From positions 1 through 35,685 of the forward strand of contig CAIUCS010000166.1 in assembly GCA_903897715.1 (NCBI GenBank): a stretch of 35,685 nt of DNA, given 5' to 3'. The stretch's first letter is position 1, and each line of letters opens with the position of its first letter. The notes under the pieces are model-generated. The model saw only the letters and a program-made list of their open reading frames with translations. It was not told the DNA's origin and searched no databases. The DNA is from an uncultured Synechococcales cyanobacterium (GTDB lineage: Bacteria; Cyanobacteriota; Cyanobacteriia; CAIUCS01). Shown here piece after piece: positions 3,860-19,472 of this stretch. The position numbers and the translations under genes were made by a program.

Positions 3860-5581
3860 TCACTCCAAGGGAAGGAATATGGTCAGAATTTCACTTTCAT
3901 TGGGGCGTTGACGCACAATTAATTTAGCTCCAAGGGCTTGAAATAGGTTTTTAGTGACTGATAACTTCAAACTGAGACTGCCAGTTTCAGGTTGAAACAT
4001 TAGTAGCTGTCCCAAGGATTTAAGGCTTGGTCTAAAAGTTTTTTCTTTGGGTGCAATTCCTCCATCCTGGGGGTGGTCAGATTCACTATAGTTCAATTGC
4101 TGAACCGGATTCGCTTGAAGTTGAAGTTTTAATTGATTGCCTGCATAAACCACCTTAACTTGAATGTGGCTGCCACTGGGAAAGTTCCGCGTAAACCGCT
4201 CGATCAAGCTGGTGAGTACTTGATCGAGCATGGTGGGGTCACTGACGACCTTTGGCATTTTAGGAGGTAAGATAACTTCTAGTGTATGTCGCCGTTGACC
4301 ACACTGTTGCTGCCAATGGGGAATGCATTGTTGAAATACTTGGGCAACGGACATGGGCATAAGGGGCACTACTGGTTGTTTTAATTCAGAAGTTTCTAGT
4401 TCTGCTGCTCTGAAAATCAAACTAAATCGATTAATTTGTTCTGTACATTCCCGATCAATCGCTTCTAAGTGCGGTAACAGATCAGAGGGCAGGGTTCTAC
4501 GTTTTAATAATAATCGGGTCAAGGTACGGATTGTAGCGAGAGGGGTGCGAACTTCGTGGGCTATGGCTTGCAGTAATTCCACATCCACTGGTTGATCATC
4601 CTTAGGGATATGGGATAAAGAGGCTGCAAGGTTGTGGTTTCCGTCCATTGATACGGCGAAGGGCTGACTATCCCCAATGTTGGTGACTTGGTCTGTGGGG
4701 GAGAATGGATGGATCACCTCCGGGGTTTGATGAATGGAGTTTAAGGTTCTATTGTCCTTAACTAGGGATGGGGGATTAGATAAATACCCTAGAAGTAGAC
4801 GACTGAATTGCATCACCCATTGATAATCCGGAGACATAGGAGGGAATTGATCCCATAGTTTGTCCCATTTACTCAGGTAGTGGGGAGCAGTCAAAACCAC
4901 CCGCGATCGCAGTGCCTTCCAAGCAGCCTCCACCACCTCAGGAGCGAATGAAAATTGAAATTGCAACCTCTCGGTATGTTCCCATCCCAAAACCAAGACT
5001 AAACTAAATTGAGGGGTTAACAGTAAGCAAAACTGCTCCTTCGTTAAGGGATCCATGGGCAATAGGGAGAGGACAGGGTTGTCCACAGTTACTATATTAC
5101 AACTAGCCCCAGGCAATAGTTGTGGAGTTAACCCATAATTAGTATCAGTAGGGGCAGGATTGAATAACCAACTGGAGTAGTGGATAGAGGTTTCAGAATG
5201 GGTTAAGACTGGTAAAGAACCAGATATAACCATTCCTTGGAGATATGGTGACGGATTAGTGTTCTCTAAGTTTTGGAGTAAACCATTCATGGCAGCAACT
5301 GCCCCGTGCCATTGATGAACCGCTTGGTGATCCGAGGAACGGGGGTTTGGTTTAGTGTTGCCAGAATGAGGAGAAACCCACGGGGAGTTAGGGAAAGGCT
5401 GCCCCATCACCAACTCCCCGTGGGTTAATAGTTCAGATAGAGTTGGCAGTACCCAGGAATCCACCACAATCTCCTTCAAAGATAGTCCACCGTCAACCAA
5501 TTGCAGGAAAACCTTAAAGAACTTAGTGGTGCAGAAAAATTTAGCAAGGGTTGTCAGATGTAAGTTCTCGAAATGAGACAA
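3860..5581 (-). CDS. Histidine-kinase-like protein with degenerate ATP-binding domain
   Basis: A 573-residue protein. The C-terminal half begins with a clear HisKA dimerisation/phosphoacceptor helix, AHEVRTPLATIRTL, with the candidate phospho-histidine at residue 342. The region that should be the HATPase domain is poor: the N-box helix reads LDQVLTSLIERF, without the Asn that coordinates Mg-ATP, and I see no DxGxG G1 box or GxGLGL G2 box, although the terminal strands (LIVRQRPNESEILTIFLPLE) look like the end of a kinase. The N-terminal 330 residues contain no recognised PAS, GAF or membrane segment. It could be a pseudokinase or a phosphoacceptor scaffold. The only start giving full length is the TTG at 5581, so the true N-terminus is uncertain. 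It marks the left border of the A+T-rich island. Confidence 0.75.
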   Translation of the reverse strand: MSHFENLHLTTLAKFFCTTKFFKVFLQLVDGGLSLKEIVVDSWVLPTLSELLTHGELVMGQPFPNSPWVSPHSGNTKPNPRSSDHQAVHQWHGAVAAMNGLLQNLENTNPSPYLQGMVISGSLPVLTHSETSIHYSSWLFNPAPTDTNYGLTPQLLPGASCNIVTVDNPVLSLLPMDPLTKEQFCLLLTPQFSLVLVLGWEHTERLQFQFSFAPEVVEAAWKALRSRVVLTAPHYLSKWDKLWDQFPPMSPDYQWVMQFSRLLLGYLSNPPSLVKDNRTLNSIHQTPEVIHPFSPTDQVTNIGDSQPFAVSMDGNHNLAASLSHIPKDDQPVDVELLQAIAHEVRTPLATIRTLTRLLLKRRTLPSDLLPHLEAIDRECTEQINRFSLIFRAAELETSELKQPVVPLMPMSVAQVFQQCIPHWQQQCGQRRHTLEVILPPKMPKVVSDPTMLDQVLTSLIERFTRNFPSGSHIQVKVVYAGNQLKLQLQANPVQQLNYSESDHPQDGGIAPKEKTFRPSLKSLGQLLMFQPETGSLSLKLSVTKNLFQALGAKLIVRQRPNESEILTIFLPLE

Positions 5582-5770: not shown

Positions 5771-6660
5771 TAGAGGGTTTCCTTTTAAAGGCTTTGCACC
5801 TGCACGGGATGATGTATCATAAGGGGAAGAATTTTTAGCAGGCGATCGCCGCGAGGAGCGAATCAAGATGAACTGTTCAAATTGTGACTCCAATCATATC
5901 AGAAAAAACGGACAGAGAAGGGGATAACAAAATTATCCATGTAAGAATTGTAGTCATCAATTGATTGAATCTTATTCTCCTAGAGGTTATTCCCAAGATG
6001 GGAAGGAAGCATGTTTAATTATGGATGTAAATTAGGGGAATTGAATGAATAACTAACGTACATCACAATACAGTCATTCGATGGGTCAAAAAGCTAGGTC
6101 ATCAGTTATCAGATAGTACTAATACTTACCAGGCATCTGAAGTTTGTCAACTGGATGAGTTAGAAATATTGATTGGTAAAAAAACAAGTGTGGGTTTAGA
6201 CAGTTGTAGATAAAACACCTTCGGGAATGATTCAATATACAGTGAGAGATCAAAGTGCCAAAACATTTGCCAAATGATGGAAAAAGATAGAGCGAAGTCC
6301 TATTTTTGGATTACGGATGGCTATAAAGTGTACCCAAAATTTATTCCCGATGGAGACCAAATTATTAGTAAAACATCAATGACTAGAGTTGAGGGAGAAA
6401 ACAGTCGTTTGCGTCACTATTTAGCCAGACTACATCGTAAGACATTTTGTTATTCTAAGTCAAAAGAGATGCGATGCGTTTCAATTAAGCTACTAATTTA
6501 TTACCTAAGAAAAAAAAGTCTTTCTGCCATAAGTTGGGTGTGACTTTCAGGGTGTGATTAACAATGTAATCTCGCTTCGCAAACGTCCTATAAGAGAAAT
6601 GTTTCAAATTAGGAGAGAATCTTAAATCATCCCGTAAATACGCAACGCTCTTTTGAAGAA
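5771..6660 (+). mobile_element. Decayed IS1-family insertion sequence
   Basis: A remnant IS with a broken IS1-type transposase between imperfect terminal inverted repeats. Reading inward, both ends share TTGC, six variable bases, then ACGGGATGAT (5794-5813 on the left; 6626-6645 on the right as reverse complement). Weaker similarity continues outward (CCTTTTAAAG versus TTCTTCAAAAG). A 9-bp direct repeat AATAAATTT flanks the region (5762-5770 and 6661-6669), consistent with the 8-9 bp target duplications of IS1 elements, though it is A+T-only and could be chance. Exact ends are uncertain by 5-15 bp. The right end lies about 15-40 bp from the start codon of the ABC exporter. Confidence 0.75.
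5868..6543 (+). pseudogene. IS1-family transposase, frameshifted and interrupted
   Basis: Conceptual reading from the ATG at 5868 starts as a zinc-ribbon InsA-like domain: CSNC at residues 3-6 and CKNC after an in-frame TAA at 5925, followed by a SYSPRGYS segment. After more stops and shifts comes HNTVIRWVKKLGHQLSD (helix-turn-helix) and QLDELEIL (start of the DDE catalytic region). The last open piece (6274-6543) reads ITDGYKVYPKFIPDG and TRVEGENSRLRHYLARLHRK, the C-terminal signature of IS1-type transposases. At least three disabling changes are present, so no active enzyme is made. Confidence 0.85.
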
Positions 6661-6684: not shown

Positions 6685-8829
6685 ATGAGATTACAAATTG
6701 TAAAGCAACATAGCGAAGAAGATTGTGGAGCAGCTTGTCTTGCGACCGTAGCAAAATATTATAAAAAAATGTTTACCCTTAACCGAATAAGGGTAATTGT
6801 GGGAACTGGGCAACAGGGTACAACTTTATTAGGACTGAGAAGAGGGGCGGAGTTTCTTGGTTTTAATGCTCGTTCCGTCCAAGCTTCAACTGCAATTTTG
6901 CAAAAGATGAACTTAATAACCTTCCCGGTTATTATTCATTGGCAAGGCAATCATTATGTTGTACTGTATGGAAAAAAAAATAATAGGTTCATTATCGCTG
7001 ATCCAGCAGTTGGAATACGTTATATCGATGAAAAAGAGCTAGTAATTAATTGGACAAACTTCATCATGTTGATGCTGGAACCTGATCCAGTCAGGTTTTT
7101 TCAGCAATCTGGAGACCAAGTCCATGGAATTACACGATTTATTAAACGTATTTCTCCATATAAGTGGATTCTTCTTGAATCCTTTTTAATCAATATTGTA
7201 CTTGGCTTGATATCTTTAAGTTCACCCCTGTTAATTCAAATTTTAACTGATGATGTCTTAGTTCGTGGTGACTCAAACTTACTTAGAGGAATTGCGATCG
7301 CTATCATTATTATGACTTTATTGAGCAGTGCTCTAAATGTGGTACAGGCACACTTAATCACTCAATTTGCCCAACGTTTACAATTGGGGTTAGTAATGGA
7401 ATTTGGACGTAAACTTCTTAAATTGCCATTAAGTTATTATGAAGCCCGTCGAAGTGGAGAAGTTACCAGTCGTTTACAAGATATTCAGCAAATTAACCAA
7501 CTTATTTCTAATGCTATTATATCATTGCCAAGTCAGTTTTTTATTGCATTAATTTCATTAGCACTGATGTTATTTTATAGTAGCAAACTCGTGTTAACGG
7601 TAATTTTACTTGCATTGCTTTGCACAATTACAACTATTATTTTCTTGCCTGCTTTACAGCAAAGAATTCGTAGTGCTATAGTGTTAGATGCCGAAAACCA
7701 AGGTCTATTAGTTGAAATTTTTAAAGGGGCATTAACACTAAAGACTACAGTTGTGCATCAACAATTTTGGGAAGAGTTACAAGGACGGTTTAGCCGACTT
7801 GCTCGATTGGTTTATGGTAGTGCCCATATTGGAATTATTAACAGTACTTCTTCAGATTTAGTTTTAAGTATAGGCAATATCGTTTTACTTTGGTTAGGCA
7901 GTAATCTGGTCATTGGGGGGGAACTTAGTATTGGTCAACTGCTTGCTTTTAACAGTATGAGTAATAGGTTTCTTGGTTTTATCAATGCTATGATTCACTT
8001 CATTGAAGAGTTTACTCATGCTAACATCGCTACTGAGCGATTATCGGAAGTTATCGATACCCAGCAAGAAGGAGATGAAACACAGGTCAAAGCTTTTGTT
8101 GAAATCCCATCATCTGCGGACATAGAATTAGTTAATTTGAGCTTTTTTCACACAGGTCGGGATAATTTAGTTGATCGCCTAACTTTAAAAATACCTGGTA
8201 CTAAAACAACTGTCATAATAGGGAAGTCTGGTTGTGGCAAAAGCTCACTGGTAAAACTCATTACAGGGCTTTATCCTTATCAAACAGGTAATATCCGAAT
8301 TGGAAACTTTAACCTAGAAGACTTAGAACTTGATTGCTTACGTCAGCAAGTCGTTCTAGTTCCTCAGGAACCTTTTTTTTGGAGTCGTTCAATTCTTGAA
8401 AATTTTCAGTTAGGGTCTCCCAATGTTTCTTTTGATAGAATTGCTAGTGCTTGTCAAGTAACCGGCGCAGATGAATTCATCAGTAAACTACCAGGAAAAT
8501 ACCAAACTATCTTAAGTGAATTCGGGACTAATTTATCAACTGGACAGAGGCAAAGATTAGCAGTGGCAAGGGCAATTGTTTCCAATCCACCTATCTTAAT
8601 TTTAGATGAGTCCACAGCTAACCTTGACCCGGCTAGTGAAGCTCAAATGCTAAATCATCTGTTAAGTTTTCGTAGGGGGAAGACAACACTTATAATTAGC
8701 CATAGACCTAAAGTAATTGAGCGAGCTGATTGGATTATTTATCTTGAACAAGGAGCTGTAAAACTAAATGGCACTCCGGCACAATTGAAAAGTATTCAAG
8801 GTGAGCATTTGATTTTTTTTAATCAATAA
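6685..8829 (+). CDS. Peptidase C39-containing ABC exporter (PCAT) for double-glycine leader peptides
   Basis: A 714-residue transporter in one chain. Residues 1-125 form a C39 cysteine protease: oxyanion Gln8, nucleophile Cys14 in SEEDCGAAC, His90 in GNHYVV and Asp106 in ADPAVG, a complete catalytic set. About residues 150-430 are the ABC type I membrane domain with several hydrophobic segments. The ATPase domain has Walker A GKSGCGKSS from 513, signature LSTGQ at 617-621, and Walker B ILILDE with Asp641-Glu642. Such proteins cut a leader after GG/GA/AG and export the remainder through HlyD and an outer-membrane channel. The N-terminus fits the family exactly, so ATG 6685 is used although no clear Shine-Dalgarno precedes it. 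A dead IS1 element ends just upstream. It converges with the adaptor gene and is visibly A+T-richer than flanking core genes. The peptide gene at 10350-10613 is the obvious substrate. Confidence 0.93.
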   Translation: MRLQIVKQHSEEDCGAACLATVAKYYKKMFTLNRIRVIVGTGQQGTTLLGLRRGAEFLGFNARSVQASTAILQKMNLITFPVIIHWQGNHYVVLYGKKNNRFIIADPAVGIRYIDEKELVINWTNFIMLMLEPDPVRFFQQSGDQVHGITRFIKRISPYKWILLESFLINIVLGLISLSSPLLIQILTDDVLVRGDSNLLRGIAIAIIIMTLLSSALNVVQAHLITQFAQRLQLGLVMEFGRKLLKLPLSYYEARRSGEVTSRLQDIQQINQLISNAIISLPSQFFIALISLALMLFYSSKLVLTVILLALLCTITTIIFLPALQQRIRSAIVLDAENQGLLVEIFKGALTLKTTVVHQQFWEELQGRFSRLARLVYGSAHIGIINSTSSDLVLSIGNIVLLWLGSNLVIGGELSIGQLLAFNSMSNRFLGFINAMIHFIEEFTHANIATERLSEVIDTQQEGDETQVKAFVEIPSSADIELVNLSFFHTGRDNLVDRLTLKIPGTKTTVIIGKSGCGKSSLVKLITGLYPYQTGNIRIGNFNLEDLELDCLRQQVVLVPQEPFFWSRSILENFQLGSPNVSFDRIASACQVTGADEFISKLPGKYQTILSEFGTNLSTGQRQRLAVARAIVSNPPILILDESTANLDPASEAQMLNHLLSFRRGKTTLIISHRPKVIERADWIIYLEQGAVKLNGTPAQLKSIQGEHLIFFNQ

Positions 8830-8882
8830 CTAGTGAATAATTGTCAGTCCCTCAAGTTTATGTATTTATGTCACTAGTTATT
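8825..8882. terminator. 11-bp inverted repeat between convergent exporter and adaptor genes
   Basis: AATAACTAGTG at 8825-8835 is perfectly complementary to CACTAGTTATT at 8872-8882, separated by 36 nt. The left arm overlaps the exporter stop codon and the right arm lies just past the adaptor stop. The position between two converging genes suggests a bidirectional transcription end. The stem is A+T-rich and the loop long, so it is not a strong intrinsic terminator. It could instead be a relic of an inserted repeat. Confidence 0.35.
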
Positions 8883-8894
8883 AGGGCTAATCTG

Positions 8895-10298
8895 TTAAGT
8901 ACCTATAAATAATCTTGCTTTTCTTAAGATAAAAATAAACATAGATTCTTCATCCGAAATAATGTCAACCTTTACTTCCATTCCAGGTTGGATTTCATAT
9001 TTATTTTCACTTTTGAGCAGAAAAGTTTTTTCAGGTTCAATCACAACCTCAAAATAAGAAGTCTCTGTTGATCCATCTTGAGTTTGATAGATCCCTTGGT
9101 TAGATGCTTTAAGAGTAATGGCATCAGCAGATATGGACATCACTTTTCCCTTAAGAATTCCATAATCTGTATAAGCATAGGCTGAAACTCGCATAACTAC
9201 CTCATGTCCTATTCTGACTTTGCCAACATCTTGGGGAGTTACCCTTGCTTTAACAACTAATGGTTTTTTTTCAGGTGAAATCTGGGCGATAATATCTCCA
9301 AGACGAACAAATTGTCCCTCATTACGAACTCGAAGTTCCAAAATAGTACCACTTACTGGAGCACGAACTAATGTATTTAGTAAGTCATTATTCATCTTTT
9401 GTAAATCTTTCTGAGATTCACTTACTTGGACTTGCAGTTGAGCCTTTTGTTGTAGTAAGGATTCTATCGTTCGTTGTAGTGTTGCAAGACTAGATTCTCC
9501 TTTAGATCTTGATTGTTCAACCTCTCCCTGAGCAACATCCATTGCGGCTTTAGTTGGACTGAGCATTTGTTGAGCGCGTTTTAATCTGGCTATTGCTGCA
9601 AGATAAGCTTGGCGTTTAATTTCTACTTGGATGTTAGCAATAGCACCTTCTATCCTAGCATTTTCATAGGCATCAAATTCAATTTTTGCTGCATCTAAGT
9701 TGGCTTGTGCCTCTTGAACTTCTCTAACAGCTATTGCTTGTTTATCAGAATATTCTCCTTGCACTCGCTTGAATTCTGATTGAGCTGAACGAATTGTCTG
9801 TCTCATTAAATTCTGTTCAGCAATAATCTGTAAATTTAAATCGAACCGCTGTTTTTCTAAGGATTGAATTTGAAACTCTCCATACTCAATGGCTTTTTTC
9901 AATTGAGCGATACCAGTTTGGAGTGGAGTATTATCAATTCGAGCAATAACTTGTCCTAACTCAACTCTTTGAGTTTCCTGTACCTCCAGTGTTTTGATGG
10001 TACCTTCCATGAGTGCTTGTACAATTTTTGTTTCTCCGCTTGGGCGTACTGAAGCAATGGCTTGCACTGTAACAGGGGAAGGCGTGATTGCTGACAAGGC
10101 AACCATAATACCTGTTGTACACAATAAAAAAATACCCCCAATACTAGCCCAATGACTGACTGGGGGGATAAAATCATCTTCATCTAAGGGAGTAACAAAC
10201 CCCTGTTTGCTAAGGCATGCATTTGTTTGAAAATGAGAAGCCTCAGTGGTTGTTTTGTTTGGACTGACAGACAACGTTCTGGAACTTAAGTGAGTCAT
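8895..10298 (-). CDS. HlyD-family periplasmic adaptor subunit
   Basis: A 467-residue membrane-fusion protein linking an ABC exporter to an outer-membrane channel. A cytoplasmic N-terminus of about 47 residues precedes one membrane segment (SIGGIFLLCTTGIMVAL, roughly 51-68). A first lipoyl half follows (VQALMEGTIKTLEVQE), then a long Gln/Glu/Lys/Ala-rich coiled-coil hairpin (about 115-300), the second lipoyl half (LVRAPVSGTILEL) and a beta-barrel region with GMEVKVDI near the end. This order is the HlyD pattern. It lies 51 nt downstream of the leader-peptide gene on the same strand, probably co-transcribed, and converges on the C39 exporter, its likely partner. No TolC-like channel is in the window, so a genomic copy elsewhere is presumably used. 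No good Shine-Dalgarno is seen before ATG 10298. Confidence 0.9.
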   Translation of the reverse strand: MTHLSSRTLSVSPNKTTTEASHFQTNACLSKQGFVTPLDEDDFIPPVSHWASIGGIFLLCTTGIMVALSAITPSPVTVQAIASVRPSGETKIVQALMEGTIKTLEVQETQRVELGQVIARIDNTPLQTGIAQLKKAIEYGEFQIQSLEKQRFDLNLQIIAEQNLMRQTIRSAQSEFKRVQGEYSDKQAIAVREVQEAQANLDAAKIEFDAYENARIEGAIANIQVEIKRQAYLAAIARLKRAQQMLSPTKAAMDVAQGEVEQSRSKGESSLATLQRTIESLLQQKAQLQVQVSESQKDLQKMNNDLLNTLVRAPVSGTILELRVRNEGQFVRLGDIIAQISPEKKPLVVKARVTPQDVGKVRIGHEVVMRVSAYAYTDYGILKGKVMSISADAITLKASNQGIYQTQDGSTETSYFEVVIEPEKTFLLKSENKYEIQPGMEVKVDIISDEESMFIFILRKARLFIGT

Positions 10299-10349
10299 CA
10301 GTTTTGTATGACGGATTATTTTTAACTAAGGTGATTATAGTTAAAAATT

Positions 10350-10613
10350 TTAAGTTACAGCAATACTAGTCACTCCAGTATTCGTTAAAATAGCTTTACC
10401 ATAATTAGGACTTCCAGGATTTAAGTCAAGTTGATAAACATTACCTCGACCTCCCCGAATTTGGACAATAAATCCATAATCGCCGTCAGGATAACTATAT
10501 CTTTGCCCATTACTAAGAAATAAAACACCAGCCGAAATTGCTGATTCCTCTTCAACACTCAGTAACATGAAATCCTGTTGGTCATTCATTTGGAGCAATG
10601 AAACGTCAGTCAT
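10350..10613 (-). CDS. Secreted-peptide precursor with double-glycine-type leader (87 aa)
   Basis: Start chosen at ATG 10613 because a perfect AAGGAGG lies 8 nt upstream; an in-frame TTG 24 nt further out would put that ribosome site inside the gene. Residues 1-29 look like a C39 leader: L18-S19 (-12/-11), E22 (-8), I26 (-4) and A28-G29 (-2/-1), with cutting predicted after G29. The predicted 58-residue product begins VLFLSNGQRYSYPDGDYGF and ends GVTSIAVT. It has nine Gly, five Tyr and no Cys, His or Trp, so it is not a lanthipeptide or disulfide bacteriocin, and no modification enzyme is nearby. It is followed after 51 nt by the HlyD adaptor and is the only nearby candidate substrate for the C39 exporter. 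Possible roles are bacteriocin, signal or biofilm regulator of the EbfG kind. The function is inferred from leader and context only. Confidence 0.8.
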   Translation of the reverse strand: MTDVSLLQMNDQQDFMLLSVEEESAISAGVLFLSNGQRYSYPDGDYGFIVQIRGGRGNVYQLDLNPGSPNYGKAILTNTGVTSIAVT

Positions 10614-10617
10614 ATTA

Positions 10618-10624
10618 AAAACCT
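10618..10624 (-). promoter_or_regulatory. Strong ribosome binding site deciding the peptide start
   Basis: AAGGAGG on the minus strand, about 8 nt before ATG 10613. It is the best Shine-Dalgarno match in this part of the window and fixes the start of the leader-peptide gene. It suggests high translation, as expected for a secreted peptide. Confidence 0.7.
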
Positions 10625-10653
10625 CCTTAAGACTCAAGGTCTATTTTGAAATT

Positions 10654-10732: not shown

Positions 10733-10887
10733 CTGATTGACTGACAAAACTTCTCAGCCAAAACTCCGTAAGCCCTCACCCTAGCCCTCTCCCGATGGGA
10801 GAGGGAACCGTAGGAGTGGATCGGCTCCCCTCGCCCCCTGAGAGAGGGGTTGGGGGTGAGGGCGTACAACTTTTGTCAGTCAACCAG
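10733..10887. mobile_element. MITE-like palindromic element (about 155 bp)
   Basis: The two ends are inverted copies: CTGATTGACTGACAAAA at the left and, as reverse complement, CTGGTTGACTGACAAAA at the right. Inside them, CCCTCACCCTAGCCCTCTCCC is mirrored by GAGAGGGGTTGGGGGTGAGGG, and a smaller CTCTCCCGATGGGAGAG hairpin is nested within. An 8-bp direct repeat GGTTTCAA lies immediately outside the left end (10725-10732) and one base outside the right end (10889-10896), fitting a target duplication. There is no coding capacity. C-rich fragments near 60-95, 3230-3270 and 11330-11370 look like pieces of related repeats. Confidence 0.65.
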
Positions 10888-11072: not shown

Positions 11073-11403
11073 TACATCACCTCCTTGTTGGGCATTAGTT
11101 GTTTGACTCAACGGAGGACGGGAATATGGTGCTAATGCTCTACAAGGAGGCATTTCCAATGAACCGTTACGGGAGCATTACAATACAGGGATTGATGTAA
11201 ACGCCTGTACTTCTAGAATCGTAAATATTTTCTAATCCCTTTAATGGTCTGTTTCACCGAACTGTAAGACTTTAGGTAACCTGAGTTCGGGATTAGCCAA
11301 GGGCTTTAATCGTTGCAAACCTGCTTCACCTCACCCCCCAGTCCCGGTGCTGGTTGGTGAGGGCGACTGAACTTAAATTGAACCTCATTTTAAGGATGAT
11401 TAG

Positions 11404-16802: not shown

Positions 16803-19472
16803 ATGTCCGTTGCAGTTAACCCATTGCTCACTCCTGATATTTCCCGCCCTGCCCGCTATCTTGGGACTGAAGTAGGTTCCCACCATAAGCCATGGGAGGA
16901 AGCAGTGGTGCGATGGGTACTCTCCTATCCGGAAGTCTATGAGGTGGGTGCCTCCAATTTGGGTCATATTATTCTTTACAATATCCTGAATGTCCAACCC
17001 CGTCAATTATGCGATCGCTCCTATTTGCCGGGAATGGATTTGTCCACTAAGCTACGAGAAACAGACACTCCATTATTTGCAGTTGAGTCGCGACGTGCTC
17101 TATGGGAGTTTGATTTAATTGGTTTCAGCCTTAGTTATGAGTTAGGGGCTACGAATATCTTAGAAATGCTCTCCCTTGCCCATATTCCCCTCACGTGGCA
17201 AGAAAGAATGACTGGAGATAGGGATCTAAGGCTGGCAAGTGACCCTATGCTACCCTTGGTCTTTGCAGGGGGACAAACTGCAACCTCTAACCCTGAACCC
17301 TATGCAGACTTTTTTGATTTCATTGTTTTGGGGGATGGAGAAGAATTACTACCAGAGATTGGTTTAATTGTTGAAGAGGGGAAATTAGCAGGTCTGAGTC
17401 GATTAGATTTATTACTGGATTTAGCCCAAATCCCTGGAGTATATGTTCCTCAATTCTATGGGAGGGGGGATGACGGGGGGGTTTATCCCCTGCGAACGGA
17501 TGTGCCGAGGCAAATTTTAAGACGGGTAGCCACTCCAATTCCCCACTATTCTATTGGACTAGTTCCTTACCCACAAACGGTACATGACCGATTGACCGTC
17601 GAAATTCGTCGGGGATGCACTAGGGGTTGTCGATTCTGTCAGCCAGGCATGCTAACCCGCCCAGCCCGAGATGTGGATCCTGATGCCGTCATTACCGCCA
17701 TTGAAGATGGAATGGGGGCAACTGGACATAATGAATTTTCCCTCCTGTCGTTGAGTTGCTCTGACTACCTGGCACTCCCAGCGTTAGGAATGGAAATCAA
17801 AAATCGCTTAAAGGATGCCAATGTCTCCCTATCGCTTCCCAGTCAACGGGTAGACCGCTTTGATGAAAATATTGCCAAAATCATTGGGGGTACCCGTAAC
17901 ACTGGTATTACATTTGCTCCGGAAGCGGGCACCCAGCGTTTGCGGGATATTATTAATAAGGGATTAACCAATGAAGAGCTACTCAGGGGGGTAAAAACTG
18001 CCTATGAACAGGGATGGACTAAAATCAAACTCTATTTCATGATTGGACTACCCGGAGAGACAGACGAGGATGTGCTGGGGATTGCTGAAACGGTGCGATG
18101 GCTAAAGCAGGAATGTGGAGGGATTGGACGTCGTCCTTTAGGGTTTAACCTCACCATTTCTAATTTTACGCCCAAGCCCCATACCCCTTTTCAATGGTAT
18201 TCGGTGGCTACATCGGAACTGACGCGCAAACAACAATTACTTCGTCATGAGTTGCGTACAATTCGAGGGCTGAAAGCTAATTTCACAGATGTACGCATTT
18301 CGGCAATGGAAGACTTTGTGGGTCGGGGCGATCGCCGTTTAGGGTCTGTCATTCGTCATGCTTGGGAATTAGGAGCTAGGGAAGACTCATGGTGGGAAAG
18401 CCTTGATCGGGCTTTTGAAGCTTGGAGTCAGGCGATTACTGCCGGCGGGCTTACTTGGAAATATCGATTGGTGGAGCAGGGTAATTGGCTCAATAGTCAG
18501 GAAGGCTACCCAGCGGATGCATCCCAACCCTTTCCCAATGTCTCAGTACCCCTGCCGTGGGATCACTTGGATACTGGCATTCAAAAACAGTGGTTAGTTG
18601 ATGACTGGCACCGGGCATTACAATCAGTGACAGTACCTGATTGTTCATTTGATGGTTGTTCTCACTGCGGGGTGTGTGGTGTAGAGTTTGGTCATAATGT
18701 GGTCGTCCCGCCTCCCCCTATCCCTGAATTTATGGGTAATTTTACCCCCCCCACCAATCGGGTTCAACGGCTACGGGTTTCCATTGGCAAGTTGGGGGAG
18801 ATGCGGTTTATTAGTCATTTGGATTGGCTGCGTTTATTAGACCGAGTGGTGCGTCGAGCATCGATTCCTATTGCCTTTACGGGTGGATATCATCCTTCAC
18901 CGCGGATTGTTCCTGCCAATGCTTTACCATTAGGGGTCACCAGCTCCGGGGAAATCATTGATTTTGAATTGAGTTGTTGGGTGGATCCCATGAAATTTTT
19001 AAATTTGTTACGGGAATACTTACCCGCAGACATGCCAGTTTTTCAAGTGGCTGAAGTGGATCTGAAAAGCCCCTCAGCCACTCAATTATTAATCCAAGCC
19101 GAGTACCACTTAACGGTTACCACCCTCGAAGAAGGGGTTGATCCACCTCAATGGCAAACTTGGATCAACAGGATTTTGGACTCTACCCACATTGTGACAA
19201 GTCACAAAACTAAATCAGGGCAGATACGCACTGTCAATCTACGGGATCGCCTTAATTCTCTATCTTTAATTCCGTTTCCGAATCCCACAATCGGTGAAAT
19301 TCATTATCTTGGGAGTTGTCGTAATGATGGCACCCTGCTCCGTCCAGAGCATCTAATTGTGATGCTAGAGCAGGTTGCCCACCAACCCTTTCGATTGCTA
19401 AGCAGCCATCGACAGCAGTTAATTTTAACGGATGTACTCTTTGAGAACACTATTCCGATTGGGGTGACGTAA
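16803..19472 (+). CDS. B12-binding radical SAM protein fused to a DUF2344 domain (TIGR03960/TIGR03936-like)
   Basis: An 889-residue two-part protein. Residues 1-200 are a B12-binding-like domain ([19 protein letters not shown], later [21 protein letters not shown]). The radical SAM core follows with the [4Fe-4S] motif CTRGCRFC (Cys272, Cys276, Cys279), then segments such as [11 protein letters not shown] and [18 protein letters not shown]. From about residue 650 comes the DUF2344 module ([38 protein letters not shown]). Between them is a cysteine-rich [13 protein letters not shown] patch that may bind another cluster. The reaction is not established; in many bacteria these genes sit near RNase G or ribosomal genes, suggesting RNA or ribosome modification. 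The 3' end overlaps the convergent sigA gene by 48 bp. Confidence 0.92.

Follow-up and report, generated by a model that had tools for sequence, protein, structure and literature searches.

A probable PteB/EbfG-like leader-cleaving secretion system with a single lineage-specific cargo in a cyanobacterial genome

The window, by which we denote the whole 35,685-nt stretch of DNA analyzed here, corresponds to contig 166 in a cyanobacterial genome of 2.86 Mb, the only genome of its family in the set searched. It harbors a set of three genes: a C39 peptidase-containing ABC exporter of the short type on the forward strand (6685..8829, 714 aa) and, on the reverse strand, a HlyD-family periplasmic adaptor (8895..10298, 467 aa) and an 87-aa precursor with a double-glycine-type leader (10350..10613, with the stop codon at 10350-10352 and the ATG at 10613). 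Exporter and hlyD are convergent. An earlier interpretation made from the letters alone, the sequence-only reading, had given the coordinates, strands and lengths of the three genes exactly, and the 51 nt that it had placed between precursor and adaptor are indeed the distance from the precursor stop to the HlyD ATG. It had also reported no modification enzyme nearby, and a domain scan of the neighboring genes found none; the same scan found neither a LanM nor a second, peptidase-less ABC transporter among the neighbors at the locus. Directly upstream of the exporter lies the C-terminal part of an IS1-family transposase (6274-6543; NCBIfam transpos_IS1, 3.1e-17), a fragment that may relate to the unusual orientation of the exporter gene, and a HisKA histidine kinase gene (3860-5581) occupies the other side of the exporter. 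A radical SAM protein with Radical_SAM_N2 and DUF2344 domains, encoded 6 kb off (16803-19472), is not obviously a peptide maturase.

The exporter starts directly with its C39 domain, without the N-terminal CAP_ED domain, and is therefore of the short type. Pfam places Peptidase_C39 at 6691-7074 (3.6e-36), ABC_membrane at 7174-7971 (3.4e-30) and ABC_tran at 8173-8619 (2.4e-28), all on the forward strand. The protein thus combines fused ABC membrane and ATPase domains with the catalytic Cys, His and Asp and the oxyanion Gln of C39 (AMS/PCAT) exporters; these residues, Q8, C14, H90 and D106, had been described as intact and are invariant across nine aligned short-type exporters. Its C39 domain is the only one found in the genome. 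The exporter is 72% identical to that of G333, a genome from another cyanobacterial family, and 53% identical over 711 aa to PteB of Synechococcus elongatus, in the same short-type group, which bears out the previous designation of PteB/EbfG as the nearest studied system.

A full Shine-Dalgarno sequence, AAGGAGGT, stands 7 nt before the precursor ATG (10621..10628, reverse strand). The leader, delimited with a leader profile and a MAFFT alignment, covers residues 1-29 (10527..10613, reverse strand) and ends in ...DFMLLSVEEESAISAG; the predicted mature product comprises the remaining 58 aa (10353..10526, reverse strand). The leader was scored with an ungapped profile built on 16 leaders from precursors located beside related exporters in other genomes, the window being excluded. 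It obtains 14.4 bits and ranks first among 1,592 window frames, the next one scoring 7.5, and 10 of 20,000 shuffles reach its score. The double-glycine-type pattern that had been noticed in the sequence alone is hence more than chance. A HMMER version built on the same leaders is weaker (4.6 bits, top of 277 small ORFs, equaled by 12 of 2,000 shuffles). When whole precursors are aligned with MAFFT, the AG of the window lines up with the GG of 12 related precursors, and the Glu residues at -8 and -7 are common to several related leaders. The Ala at -2 is unusual. Double-glycine leader types before the cut are listed as GG, GA and GS (PMC6363468), and the window precursor carries AG instead; the earlier view of AG as an established cut motif is not supported. 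True leaders left out of the profile score between 11 and 37 bits, with the GA leader of EbfG4 at 11.0, and the window leader scores lower than all compared leaders except one. Searching the genome itself with the leader alignment yielded no other candidate, with an 18-column model of low power that likewise left the window's own leader unrecovered.

The precursor is known as one sequence only. We found no relatives of it in Pfam, NCBIfam or PHROGs, in 59 relatives, 390 class genomes and 65 genomes of G333's family, or among the genome_contigs, viral contigs and plasmids. Together with the AG in place of GG, this would fit a chance frame or a decayed gene, in which case the true substrate of the exporter would be encoded elsewhere. 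We regard such an origin as highly improbable, since the frame has the best leader of all those in the window, a consensus Shine-Dalgarno and a position directly before hlyD, and since missing core homologues are usual for this type of cluster. The weak hits obtained in the class genomes were rejected as homologues: two of them (L004 and L008) lie opposite a long frame reading as DNA polymerase I, and two others (L003 and L013) lie inside other genes and have no leader.

Several non-coding elements surround the precursor gene. Directly after its stop codon and before hlyD there is an AT-only hairpin of 11 A-U pairs with a 9-nt loop (10318..10348, reverse strand), and the whole 96-nt region around it folds beyond chance (z -3.8, 0 of 200 shuffles), with no U-run after the hairpin; a role in balancing precursor against adaptor mRNA is a guess. 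On the other side, a MITE-like element (10733-10887) with 27-nt terminal inverted repeats (81%) and a palindromic GC-rich middle stops some 120 bp upstream of that gene's ATG and may therefore touch the precursor's promoter; its stretch 10755-10885 recurs in at least 40 copies in the genome at 91-100% identity. A 12-nt perfect inverted repeat lies between the convergent ends of exporter and hlyD (8825..8882), and a short inverted repeat with 19-nt arms, 89% complementary and 33 nt apart, is found at 11080-11150. Promoter and terminator scans returned no more than shuffles give.

The adaptor matches Pfam HlyD_3 (2.3e-17) and NCBIfam type_I_hlyD (4.6e-52, under that model's curated cut-off). At E 1e-40 or better, it has relatives in 82 of the 390 class genomes, the window's own genome counted, the best one being 56% identical and residing in G333. 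A single OEP/TolC-type outer-membrane protein was found in the genome, encoded on another contig, C33, so that calling the locus self-contained, as the sequence-only reading did, is an overstatement; with one C39 domain and one such protein in the genome, a full secretion path is nevertheless plausible.

G333 contains the nearest system found (locus L062). Its precursor, of 77 aa, is encoded just before the exporter, with a leader of the form ...LFVELSSDEEAQIQGG. As in the window, the locus has one short precursor. The G333 leader ends in ELSSDEEAQIQGG; in contrast to the window core, with which it gives no alignment, the G333 core has two Cys. The precursors of G058 and G010, of 107 and 108 aa, have leaders ending in IQGG and Cys-free cores rich in Gly, Pro, Asn and Phe. 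Precursors with GG adjoin related exporters or adaptors in G058, G010, G318, G190, G334, G269, G130, G192 and S. elongatus, the last being identified (L082) by frames that hold the EbfG peptides printed in PMC4997328. The cores of these related systems are alike only among near relatives. Exporter and hlyD are divergent in G333, G058 and G010 and run in the same direction in S. elongatus, whereas they converge in the window. A FastTree phylogeny of 27 exporters joins the window with G333 (0.98) and then with G058/G010 (1.0), inside the short-type exporters, to which PteB also belongs, with the long type set apart; PteB is not the nearest neighbor, and the deeper branching is weakly supported.

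The domains, the intact active site, the leader pattern, the sole C39 domain of the genome and the recurrence of the same gene set in relatives lead us to propose, with good confidence, that this is a PteB/EbfG-like type I secretion system that cleaves leaders and serves one lineage-specific cargo. Precursor and HlyD adaptor would be made together, the former from a strong ribosome site, and the N-terminal leader of the precursor would dock on the C39 domain of the exporter, which would cut after Ala28-Gly29 during export. Exporter, HlyD and the outer-membrane protein from contig C33 would then pass an unmodified 58-aa protein out of the cell. Against this proposal stand the AG, outside the GG, GA and GS types (PMC6363468), and the low score of the leader among those compared. 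Export of the 58-aa product and a cut at AG are inferred as most likely.

The composition of the core agrees with the previous count (58 aa, with nine Gly, five Tyr and no Cys). It had been highlighted as an undescribed, Gly/Tyr-rich and Cys-free product, but this is not special: clusters of this type are known for cores with almost no conservation (PMC3140520), and several relatives likewise have cores that lack Cys and abound in Gly, Pro or aromatics. A single-sequence structure model of the product is all-beta with a pLDDT of 50, too poor for use. Two likenesses of the core were rejected. The first is to a family of SH3-like small cyanobacterial proteins (L022, from G206), which resembles the core by eye, aligns with it pairwise in BLAST at 41% over 56 aa and fails the profile control: against the family profile, 95 of 5,000 shuffles do as well as the core, and the hhalign value is 4.9%. 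These proteins, of about 100 aa, occur in 33 of 242 genomes in up to eight copies each (alignment A3), with the consensus F.IG.RV.W....DFG.I.G...YH.I.LD..SPS....DWAFE.DLEL; they belong to no Pfam family and show a weak likeness to the C-terminus of nitrile hydratase beta (0.021).

The second likeness would make the core one beta-propeller blade, which would assemble into an extracellular ring. The best class hit falls in a propeller-like protein and covers residues 44-78 at 39% (E 4.4e-4, counted for a single genome), and TolB blades head the PDB list behind a ribosomal protein. Once 390 genomes are counted, however, the class hit is close to chance, the core matches no Pfam repeat family, and the supporting profile had been picked after the fact. 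The reversed core matches SAKe proteins, which we take to be designed propellers, at E 7.7e-9, a much stronger match than that of the real core to TolB; repeat proteins thus attract inflated hits, and on this control we dismiss the blade as scarcely tenable.

What the exported product does is addressed here by analogy. In S. elongatus, efficient secretion of the EbfG proteins, like biofilm formation, depends on the C39 Cys (PMC4997328); EbfG1-3 assemble into amyloid, and EbfG4 has been located in the matrix and on the surface (PMC9981879). For the window product, a role as an extracellular or cell-surface biofilm-matrix protein has, in our estimate, slightly less than an even chance. It is suggested by the relation of the exporters, since the core has no detectable similarity to the EbfG proteins, and cores without homology make the analogy with S. 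elongatus a loose one. A crude AGGRESCAN-style aggregation score fails to separate the amyloid EbfG1-3 from EbfG4 and so carries no information on the role. That the product might be a new small beta-rich extracellular protein, unrelated to EbfG and forming a matrix or surface fiber in this lineage, we consider rather unlikely; were it true, one type of exporter would have recruited unrelated structural proteins repeatedly.

A signal or some other role is a tentative possibility. Its specific form, a secreted peptide pheromone perceived by a kinase, for which the HisKA protein (3860-5581) would be an example, appears decidedly unlikely: a peptide pheromone of 58 aa would be a long one, and the kinase, more than 1 kb off and behind the transposase remnant, is linked to the product by nothing beyond the presence of its gene on the exporter's other side. 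Favoring a signal, C39 exporters release quorum peptides in other bacteria (PMC6363468). The same export machinery might also serve an unmodified class II-type (microcin-like) bacteriocin acting on other cyanobacteria, which we hold to be doubtful though worth weighing. Wang 2011 named such clusters bacteriocin clusters (PMC3140520), and the leader type is that of class II bacteriocins; yet no small immunity-type gene was recognized adjoining the precursor, up to E 10 the product matches none of the bacteriocin families of Pfam, NCBIfam or PHROGs, and the one relative that has been studied acts in biofilm formation. The remark in the sequence-only reading that the core resembles no known bacteriocin class holds in that it matches nothing in the collections searched.

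As a leader-cleaving export system of the PteB/EbfG kind, the locus offers a clean case for the little-studied group III systems, the genome having just one C39 exporter, with one evident cargo. One exporter and one 87-codon cargo gene are well suited to learning the purpose of such systems outside S. elongatus, and the comparison with G333 illustrates fast cargo turnover, exporters 72% identical carrying cores without any similarity.

Among known systems, class II bacteriocins and microcins share with the window C39 processing and the leader pattern L-S-x2-E-x3-I/V-x-(G)G, from which the window departs in having Ala at -2 and Glu, not a hydrophobic residue, at -7; it also differs in that no immunity gene and no class II core signature were recognized. 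PteB, like the window exporter, is a short-type C39 protein of 714 aa with a HlyD partner, and the EbfG precursors, like that of the window, are small, leader-bearing, free of Cys and unaccompanied by modification enzymes. Cut sites other than GG occur in S. elongatus and are predicted in the window: processed EbfG N-termini follow GG and GA, the cut of EbfG4 after GA having been seen by mass spectrometry (PMC4997328), and the window precursor would be cut after AG. S. elongatus has four precursors against the single, putatively AG-cut one of the window, which is 7-15% identical to EbfG1-4 with the leader alone in common. The departures of the window from known systems are the AG, in place of GG or GA, at the predicted cut, the exporter convergent to its partners and the AT-only hairpin after the precursor.

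Group III clusters combine a short-type exporter with HlyD and lack the LanM of group IV and the extra ABC transporter of group V (PMC3140520). Wang 2011 described very little core conservation and assigned one group III cluster to S. elongatus PCC 7942 (PMC3140520). The window fits this description in its short-type exporter, its HlyD, its short precursor with a double-glycine-type leader (Ala at -2), its unconserved core and the absence of a LanM or second ABC transporter alongside, and has one precursor against a group III average of 3.89. The precursor, having no Pfam or NCBIfam match, is not recognizably NHLP, N11P, HetP or DUF37. The earlier interpretation was therefore right about the kind of system and overstated its novelty, divergent Cys-free cores being often found in this cluster type. 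The machinery is already known, and what is new is an orphan cargo without known relative; judged by its genes, the system falls among the group III clusters already published for cyanobacteria, where PteB/EbfG is the case that has been studied.
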